DNA of 64,000 nt from Rhodocytophaga rosea (GTDB lineage Bacteria > Bacteroidota > Bacteroidia > Cytophagales > 172606-1), in assembly GCF_010119975.1 (NCBI RefSeq), contig NZ_CP048222.1:6982501-7046500 (forward strand). Direction: 5' to 3'. The notes beneath the pieces are model-generated. The model worked only from the letters and a program-made list of their open reading frames with translations, had not been told where the DNA came from and did not search any database. Made by a program: the position numbers and the translations under genes. This document shows, one piece after another, positions 48,245 to 52,376 of this stretch. Every line of letters starts with the position of its first letter. Position 1 is the stretch's first letter.

Positions 48245-48340
48245 TTATTAGCCATAACAATATTAGAAAGTCAAGAGTGTTCAATTATAGAATGCAAAGA
48301 ATGATTGAAAAGATTTAGAATTAAGTTGATGATAGCTCAG

Positions 48341-48803
48341 GCCGTCTTTACTTTTATTTTGCTTGCCCAAAATAAAAGTAACAAAACAAAAGGGCAGCAC
48401 CAACAGAGACTTTTTTCACGCCAGATAAAATCATCGCACAATCCTCCGGCCCTCGCAAAAGGCCAAAAAAGTCCGCGCTATTGCTGCACCACCCACCGCA
48501 CTCTTTCATCATCTAAAGCTGTAATGAGCAGTATGGTAGGTATTACACTCATTACAGAGTATATATTGAGTAACTTTTTAGATAATTATTGAAGTAAAAT
48601 GTTAGAAAGAGAAAAAATGAACATAAAACTAAAATCAAAAAAAATCCATGCGCGGGAGGAAAAATGAAAAGCGGGGTGCGCGTGAGCCATGAGTGTTGAA
48701 GCGTTTTTCATTTTGCCAGAACTACATTCGCTTGCTTCGGCTCTCGCCTCACAAGTGTTTTGTTACTTTTATTTTGGGCAAGCAAAATAAAAGTAAGGAC
48801 GGC
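48341..48803. mobile_element. 463-bp element with 47-bp hairpin-bearing inverted ends
   Basis: The 47 bp at 48341-48387 and 48757-48803 are inverted copies differing at one base. Each end itself contains a 12-bp palindrome (ACTTTTATTTTG, loop CTTGCC, CAAAATAAAAGT), so each end folds as a hairpin. The interior has a GC-rich 5' part, an AT-rich middle and a 3' part with GCGCGGGAGG and a second inverted pair GAAAAATGAAAAGC / GCGTTTTTCATTTT. There is no convincing open frame and no target duplication that I can see. The layout fits a MITE-like or structured RNA element moved by a transposase elsewhere. Confidence 0.75.
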
Positions 48804-48878
48804 GTATGAATAGAACAAGATAGTTATTTGTCGCAAACAGACTCTAAAAATAACTTCTCAATCAAAAACATACCCTAT

Positions 48879-51081: not shown

Positions 51082-51108
51082 ATTAGATAAATAGAGATAG
51101 CTAAGTAA

Positions 51109-51717
51109 TTAAACACAATTAAGTATAATATTTTCATCTACTTCAAGTTTTTTAAAATCAAGTTTAAAGTAAGTACCCAATCCTGAAAAGATGGTATAAA
51201 GTGCCTCCTTAAGCGCTTCTACAGACAGATAGTCTTCGGCTTTGAGCCAATGATATTTCACCTGCTTCCAAAATCGTTCGATCCTGTTAAGATGAGGACT
51301 ATACTTAGGCAGCAAAAAGATGTATAATCCTTTCTGTTCCCATTCTTCTTTTTTGACTTCCCATAGGCCACATGTATGCCAGGAGGCGTTGTCTAAGACT
51401 ATGACAGTAAACTTGGAAATAGATGTTGAGAAGGCCTCTACACATTCAATGATAAAGTCAGCGTTTAGACTCCCACTTTTCTGATAAGTAAGCAACTCAT
51501 TATTTGTACTTAACAAGCCAAATACATTTATCCTTGTACTTCTTTGGGATAAAATAGGGGCGTGTTCGCCTTTTTTGATCCATCCATAAGGTACACAAGG
51601 GGTAAGGCAAAACCCTGATTCGTCTCCAAAATATAAATCTATACTGCCTGTCTGTGCCAAATAAAGCAAAGCATGTAATCGCTTGACTTTCTGCTCATAT
51701 GCTTCTTTGTTTTGCAA
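51109..51717 (-). CDS. IS630 transposase, catalytic part (ORF B)
   Basis: 202 residues of the DDE domain: IDLYFGDESGFCLTP (first Asp), FTVIVLDNASWHTCG (second Asp), and LPKYSPHLNRIERFWKQVK (Glu). A TTG at 51717 begins the listed frame, but this frame continues upstream and reads DYRWKRFRKWIKPLQNK, a conserved IS630 segment. So the natural protein is a fusion with ORF A by -1 slippage. The final codons overlap the left terminal repeat. Confidence 0.9.
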   Translation of the reverse strand: MQNKEAYEQKVKRLHALLYLAQTGSIDLYFGDESGFCLTPCVPYGWIKKGEHAPILSQRSTRINVFGLLSTNNELLTYQKSGSLNADFIIECVEAFSTSISKFTVIVLDNASWHTCGLWEVKKEEWEQKGLYIFLLPKYSPHLNRIERFWKQVKYHWLKAEDYLSVEALKEALYTIFSGLGTYFKLDFKKLEVDENIILNCV

Positions 51718-52196
51718 TGGCTTTATCCATTTACGGAAACGTTTCCATCGGTAGTCAATTTTTTTAAAAACCGCTTCAAGGTCATCTCACTCATAGCCGT
51801 GCCTAATTTAGCTTCTATCTCTCGCTTAGCTAATTTAAGTTGTTGTTTTTCTTTCTCTATGCTATTTTCCACTACTTCAACATGGGTAGCATTACTGGTA
51901 GTAAGGATGGGTTTTCTGCCTTTCCCTTTTTGGTTCTTTAACCCTACCACACCTGTTTTCTCAAAGCGATCAAACCACTTATAAATACTTAACTGACTTA
52001 CTTGAAAAATGCTTGCTAACTTCTGTACTTGATAGCCTTGATTGGATAACAGTATACATTGGCAACGGTTACGTTCCTGATAACTTTTACTATCTTTATG
52101 AATCTTCTCTAAGTCTTGTTTTTGCTTGTCTGTAATCTTCTTGATATAACGCATAAGCAAAGATACAATTTGCCAAAATCTTATACTTAATTGTGT
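51113..52196 (-). mobile_element. IS630-family insertion sequence with two-frame transposase
   Basis: About 1084 bp with terminal inverted repeats of 22 bp (51113-51134 and 52175-52196; ACACAATTAAGTATAA then one mismatch then ATTTT). The right end is followed by TAC, and the TA target duplication of IS630 cannot be matched exactly on the left, where AA precedes CACAATT. So the end position or the left target base has changed. It sits next to the decayed 21-bp array. Confidence 0.88.
51723..52160 (-). CDS. IS630 helix-turn-helix part (ORF A)
   Basis: 145 residues. Two winged/helix-turn-helix units: QVQKLASIFQVSQLSIYKWFDRF and the later MSEMTLKRFLKKL, joined by the basic linker NQKGKGRKPIL. 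It binds the element ends. The minus-strand slippery run TTTTTAAAAAAA (T5 at 51770-51766, A7 at 51765-51759) lies at RFLKK. A -1 shift there joins this frame to the catalytic frame, as in many IS630 elements. Confidence 0.9.
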   Translation of the reverse strand: MLMRYIKKITDKQKQDLEKIHKDSKSYQERNRCQCILLSNQGYQVQKLASIFQVSQLSIYKWFDRFEKTGVVGLKNQKGKGRKPILTTSNATHVEVVENSIEKEKQQLKLAKREIEAKLGTAMSEMTLKRFLKKLTTDGNVSVNG

Positions 52197-52376
52197 ACTC
52201 TTACTTATAGCAAGCTGCCGACATAAATTTTATTCTTGTGCCGCTGGCATATGGGTGTGTTTATTTTCCTGGATTAAGAAATAAATGCAACTGCTAAAAG
52301 AGTTGTGTATCCACATTTGGGCCTTAATATAGACAGAAAGAGATATTAGAAATAAAAATAAGTTCAAACCTACAAT

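Follow-up and report, generated by a model that had tools for sequence, protein, structure and literature searches.

A dispersed modular repeat of Rhodocytophaga rosea and its relatives with a predicted pseudoknot-triplex RNA end

A 463-bp stretch of the Rhodocytophaga rosea genome (48341-48803 of the window, the 64,000-nucleotide stretch of DNA analysed here) is a type A element, with its RNA strand on minus, joined tail to tail to a type B element, with its RNA strand on plus. Comparison of the copies shows that the repeat is dispersed, modular and intergenic, and that it consists of a variable body (A, B or others) followed by the UGCCC-type strand of a helix S1, a U/C-rich loop L1 and a U-rich/A-rich hairpin S2 whose loop supplies the other S1 strand. 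Evolution among the copies shows an end that would fold as an H-type pseudoknot, in which L1 follows the A-rich S2 strand in parallel under a pyrimidine-motif code. We found the repeat with this predicted end within Bacteroidota and, outside that phylum, in a single family; Rfam has no match to it. Overall, the best explanation is a mobile-derived modular repeat with a structured pseudoknot-triplex RNA end, a reading that we hold with somewhat better than even confidence.

The inverted arms of the 463-bp stretch (48341-48388 and 48756-48803) are 48 nt long, 98% complementary with one mismatch and separated by 367 nt, and both hold a perfect hairpin with 14-nt arms and a 6-nt loop (48348-48381 and 48763-48796). 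The initial annotation had described near-identical inverted ends with one mismatch and a hairpin within each, and these observations stand, except that the ends had been given as 47 bp and the hairpin arms as 12 bp. The 463 bp, earlier taken as one element, are thus two in tail-to-tail order, and the long inverted repeat is explained by a single kind of hairpin end that is present twice. The conserved unit is each half, not the interior as such.

Read on the minus strand, the A half has a body of ~120 nt (48392-48509), whose long stem (columns 29-47/103-121 of A4) covaries and is followed by a U-tract. The upstream S1 strand, RNA UGCCC (48392-48396), pairs with the second S1 strand, GGGCA (48364-48368), in the loop of the A-end S2 hairpin (RNA UUACUUUUAUUUUG-GGCAAG-CAAAAUAAAAGUAA). 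Between them lies L1 (RNA UUUUGUUUUG, 48382-48391), the proposed third strand of a triple helix, and just outside the hairpin is an outer tag (48341-48347) that reads GCCGTCT on the plus strand and is part of a CTTAS-GCCGTC consensus. An unconserved AT-rich spacer (48510-48629) separates the halves, and composites differ in its length and sequence. On the plus strand, the B half has a body (48630-48717) with a stem at 48658-48673/48702-48717, an insert module of ~40 nt with approximate boundaries (48718-48755; CTTGTGAGGCGAGAGCCGAAGCAAGC... on the minus strand), an L1 remnant, the 3' half (RNA UGUUUUG, 48756-48762), and the S2 hairpin; the insert stands in place of S1 and the 5' half of the B-end L1. 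The GC-rich interior segments, previously noted as structured, are indeed stems, of which the B-body pair is an example. In the A halves (minus strand, e.g. 48395-48450) and in the B half (plus strand), GGAGG is followed by an ATG and a short hydrophobic frame that runs into the hairpin. Among the printed copies, compared by eye and unscored, this frame is shifted by 1-nt indels; coding is therefore unlikely and the frames are probably spurious.

Across the 8.98 Mb of the genome, 33 instances of the hairpin were found at three or fewer mismatches and none of a reversed-pattern control, which excludes chance, and a covariance model of the hairpin with its adjacent loop gave 53 matches in this genome. 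These are the further copies whose absence the initial annotation had named as grounds for rejecting its element. Read side by side, the copies share one common end behind an A or a B body. Most are solo A or solo B, and tail-to-tail A+B composites were found in the window and at four other loci (L004, L018, L026 and L049). Some copies, the window B half among them, contain the insert module, which elsewhere stands alone or in tandem. A 33-40-nt module (GAGGCGAGAGCCGAAGCAAGC...; L070:2515-2554, L056, L067 and window 48718-48755) constitutes a second small repeat that enters many contexts, seen inside some elements, in a transposase-like ORF region and in tandem in G006. The GCCGTCT tag is kept among the copies of this genome and differs in R. 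aerolata and G002-G005 (L051, L052, L057, L063).

All seven same-family genomes searched carry the repeat. At E≤1e-5, it was present in 25 of 390 genomes from the order, spread over 15 genera, and in 26 of 395 from the class, spread over 21. A first exact-type pattern had found no match in 296 genomes of the phylum, and carriers were later found with the covariance model. Metagenome-assembled genomes (MAGs) of Selenomonadaceae (Bacillota) were found by exact pattern, with 7, 9 and 41 matches per MAG. In this family, genes that read as acpS and an NAD(P)HX epimerase lie on either side of one locus (L288), and in others (L308-L327) a ~185-bp unit places two or three variable GC-rich stem-loops ahead of the same end. 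In genome G413 (L270, L271, L272) the pseudoknot motif is part of long tandem arrays that are non-coding and have a repeat unit of ~490 bp or 0.8-1.2 kb. Against Rfam 15, the window gave no match up to E=1, and ten loci from several families gave none up to E=0.1.

In the RNA direction, the end reads as a GC-rich stem followed by UGCCC-UUUUGUUUUG-UUACUUUUAUUUU-GGGCA-AGC-AAAAUAAAAGUAA, so that the order is S1 (UGCCC), L1 (UUUUGUUUUG), the 5' arm of S2, the GGGCA-containing loop and the 3' arm of S2. S2 shows double changes in 10 of its 14 pairs, with a covariation of 0.316 compared with 0.100 after shuffling. For the A domain with S1 the value was 0.177, compared with 0.106 shuffled and at most 0.071 when slid. 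S1 has at least 5 bp in 96 of 133 copies, where the permuted maximum was 69; these controls preserve composition and not ancestry, and block exchange between copies inflates the counts. The S1 types include UGCCC/GGGCA, UGUCC/GGACA, CGCCC/GGGCG and CUCCC/GGGAG, together with CUUGAU/AUCAAG, CUUGAA/UUCAAG and CUCCGCCC/GGGCGGAG, and S1 is broken in two copies (L005 and L237). S1 and S2 thus stand in pseudoknot order and both covary, as is characteristic of an H-type pseudoknot. The covariation in S2, S1 and the A domain, whose lack had likewise been set as a ground for refutation, and the strand-biased wobble pairs described below support the earlier suggestion of a structured RNA.

L1 changes together with S2. 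Across 51 genomes, a G that interrupts the A-rich S2 arm is answered by C in L1 (73 of 75), and an interrupting U by G (14/15, mainly one stem variant); where the arm has no interruption, neither has L1 (41 of 41). The code followed is U.A-U, C+.G-C and G.U-A. An off-centre interruption decides the register, since a parallel L1 denotes a Hoogsteen triple helix and an antiparallel L1 the alternative duplex. All 26 copies with off-centre interruptions (21 genomes) were parallel and none was antiparallel, and antiparallel pairing of L1 was rejected on this ground. Eight more asymmetric copies from Selenomonadaceae MAGs, with 3-G-5, 4-G-3 and 3-G-4 stems, were parallel too. Across 87 distinct rows from 51 genomes, with a parser that required L1 to be U-runs with at most a short interruption and permitted either register, 76 rows were perfect in the parallel register and 57 in the antiparallel, and the maximum with shuffled L1 was 34. 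Sequence comparison therefore places L1 alongside the S2 purine strand, in the parallel register and in the triplex code. The predicted geometry, in which L1 reaches from the S1/S2 junction to the far end of S2 in this register, is that of a major-groove-triplex H-type pseudoknot. C+.G-C triples require protonation, which we count against the triplex reading. RNA can form pyrimidine-motif intrastrand triplexes (PMC4666352). Also counted against the reading are two copies from different genera (L169 and L202) that lack a regular L1; they share an altered one, GATGTTGAATTG, that is unable to obey the triplex code, and their S2 is intact.

The dispersal of the repeat agrees with mobility. Genes around the loci are simple ORF calls. 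In R. aerolata (G001), the element is missing between orthologous genes at every comparable locus except one, a difference that may reflect gain in one species or loss in the other. At the window locus, where the ABC gene is 88% identical in R. aerolata, the gene gap is a few bp in that species and 634 bp here (48245-48878), so that the extra DNA is larger than the 463 bp. Other gene gaps measure 12 bp in R. aerolata compared with ~481 here, 55 compared with ~404 and 64 compared with ~391 bp. These empty orthologous sites, together with dozens of dispersed copies, support the proposal of a non-autonomous element. We suppose that copies spread as such elements and that end, body and insert modules were swapped between copies by recombination. 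At a pcaD/pcaC-like site (L021; R. aerolata L057/L074), one species has a B element and the other an A element in the same orientation, which suggests body exchange or repeated insertion. Between copies the core is highly similar and the flanks outside it are nearly unalignable, which indicates old insertions with a core that is constrained or homogenised. Of the two causes first offered for the similarity of the ends, recent movement or structural selection, recent movement is thus doubtful.

An ordinary TA-target MITE, moved in trans by an IS630/Tc1-mariner-type transposase and carrying the hairpins and pseudoknot as passengers or subterminal binding sites, is the foremost alternative, one that we regard as possible but rather unlikely. 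It would account for the empty orthologous sites and for the 500-650-bp A+B composites of relative G004, which end in TATAGT...ACTATA, that is (TA)TAGT...ACTA(TA), with imperfect terminal repeats. However, such ends were not seen in R. rosea: within-copy terminal repeats scored mostly below shuffled ones, and ends of the G004 type were not recognisable. Covariation between L1 and S2 would also be left unexplained. The window itself contains an IS630-type transposase (51102-52207) that occupies two reading frames and has terminal inverted repeats of 33 bp; another copy of it adjoins the element at L049. The initial annotation had envisaged a transposase with the same terminal repeats, and the ends of the window IS630 (TAAGTAATTAAACACAATTAAG...), the sole IS630 copy compared, differ from those of the element, so that it was rejected as the mobiliser. 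No mobilising enzyme was found.

The folded molecule is probably RNA, on the strand indicated by wobble bias and co-directional with the neighboring genes in R. rosea. In the A domain, the strand read from body to hairpin has 155 G.U compared with 10 A.C pairs, and a structure optimised for the opposite strand gives the same direction of bias; wobble pairs of the B stem gave no strand decision. Between tandem gene pairs of this genome, the RNA strand runs in the direction of the genes on either side, and none of the A and solo B elements is reversed.

Could the folding strand be DNA instead? A single-stranded DNA, forming an intrastrand triplex hairpin during replication and recognised by a mobilising nuclease or transposase, is an unlikely alternative. 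Hairpins of IS200/IS605 and REP elements are recognised for mobilisation in such fashion. The repeat is multicopy and mobile-looking in many genomes, and strand-specific folding fits single-stranded DNA as well. Furthermore, the upstream gene is in the same sense in 19 of 29 cases in other Bacteroidota and in 8 of 12 in Selenomonadaceae, a weak bias, and because orientation outside R. rosea only mildly favors a role at RNA 3' ends, we retain a role as a single-stranded mobile-element end. Against it are the strict co-orientation in R. rosea, the bodies that precede the end, whose rich and variable stem-loops resemble RNA domains, and the Y1 transposase genes of the genome (L068-L072), beside which no motif hairpin was found.

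For an RNA, we put action at the transcript 3' end at slightly less than an even chance. RNA polymerase would pass the GC-rich stem and the U-tract, which resemble an intrinsic terminator; the tract would double as raw material for the triple helix and then fold into a compact pseudoknot that may resist 3'-to-5' nucleases and punctuate transcription. A fold that punctuates and resists nucleases could explain why the insert is tolerated between genes that lie a few bp apart in R. aerolata. A simpler proposal, an intrinsic terminator pair, possibly bidirectional, whose second hairpin merely closes the U-tract, draws on the GC-rich stem and U-rich tract in the sequence of A, B and Selenomonadaceae bodies and on tail-to-tail pairing. 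We consider it quite improbable, since it predicts neither S1 pairing nor the parallel L1 code and a terminator has no need of interruptions that match across three strands. More speculative still, and hardly to be expected, is a new class of mobile RNA element whose protective triple-helix pseudoknot doubles as the recognition end for mobilisation, for instance by a reverse transcriptase in trans, like SINE tails, which could embrace Bacteroidota, Negativicutes and interchangeable bodies.

The long near-identical inverted repeats around 367 bp might recall an invertible promoter (inverton) between 48-bp inverted repeats, a reading that can be virtually dismissed given that the copies are mostly solo halves lacking a partner repeat, that two copies of one end explain the repeat and that no adjoining recombinase was seen. 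We also rejected a RAYT/REP assignment (no hairpin by Y1 genes, tag unconserved across genera), a riboswitch (on sequence inspection, downstream genes look unrelated, with no common function) and integron-like cassettes (the clustered G413 copies belong to tandem repeats without coding sequence and are not placed between gene cassettes).

Several known systems resemble the repeat in part. Correia/NEMIS elements are TA-flanked MITEs. Relative G004 has similar TATAGT...ACTATA-like ends around a structured non-coding insert, but these ends are unrecognisable in R. rosea, solo halves are common and no matching transposase was found. REP/BIME and GTAG-/CGTC-tagged palindromes are likewise multicopy, intergenic and often in head/tail pairs, and CGTC lies outside the hairpin in R. 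rosea as in CGTC-tagged palindromes (PMC3733652). In contrast to these, the structured unit of the repeat is much longer, the tag is missing in relatives, and no RAYT (Y1) gene was seen flanked by or associated with it.

Holder et al. 2015 described PIT (BoxC) repeats of Enterobacteria, G/C-rich and with the potential for an intrastrand triplex (PMC4666352). The present repeat is similarly dispersed in bacteria with a potential one-strand triplex, and its layout is that of PIT class IV, with a 5' Hoogsteen domain, a pyrimidine domain and a 3' purine domain; Bacteroidetes go unmentioned in the text of that paper (PMC4666352). It differs in being A/T-rich and of the pyrimidine motif, closed by a covarying pseudoknot helix and set within a larger covarying body.

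Telomerase RNA and SAM-II contain H-type pseudoknots with a major-groove triple helix. The same holds for SAM-V (PMC6061858). The repeat is predicted to share their S1-L1-S2 topology, in which a U-rich L1 occupies the major groove of an S2 rich in A-U pairs; it differs in that it is dispersed, lacks a ligand context or common downstream gene and has 7-10 predicted triples. ENE triple helices at the RNA ends of transposon RNAs and MALAT1 are reported to protect the RNA (PMC12501189, PMC11411715), and the repeat resembles these in a predicted triple helix at an RNA end borne by a transposable element. In the ENE, however, a U-rich internal loop clamps a poly(A) or A-rich tail; the repeat has no such clamp, its third strand would come from the 5' pseudoknot loop, and it occurs in bacteria.

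Triple-helix pseudoknots are thus known from riboswitches, telomerase RNA and the 3' ends of eukaryotic transposon RNAs and lncRNAs. A multicopy bacterial repeat with three-way covariation in dozens of genomes, drawn from two phyla, would offer a natural collection of triplex variants, would account for an abundant and so far nameless intergenic repeat of Bacteroidota, and would allow a direct test of whether triple helices stand at the ends of bacterial RNAs.
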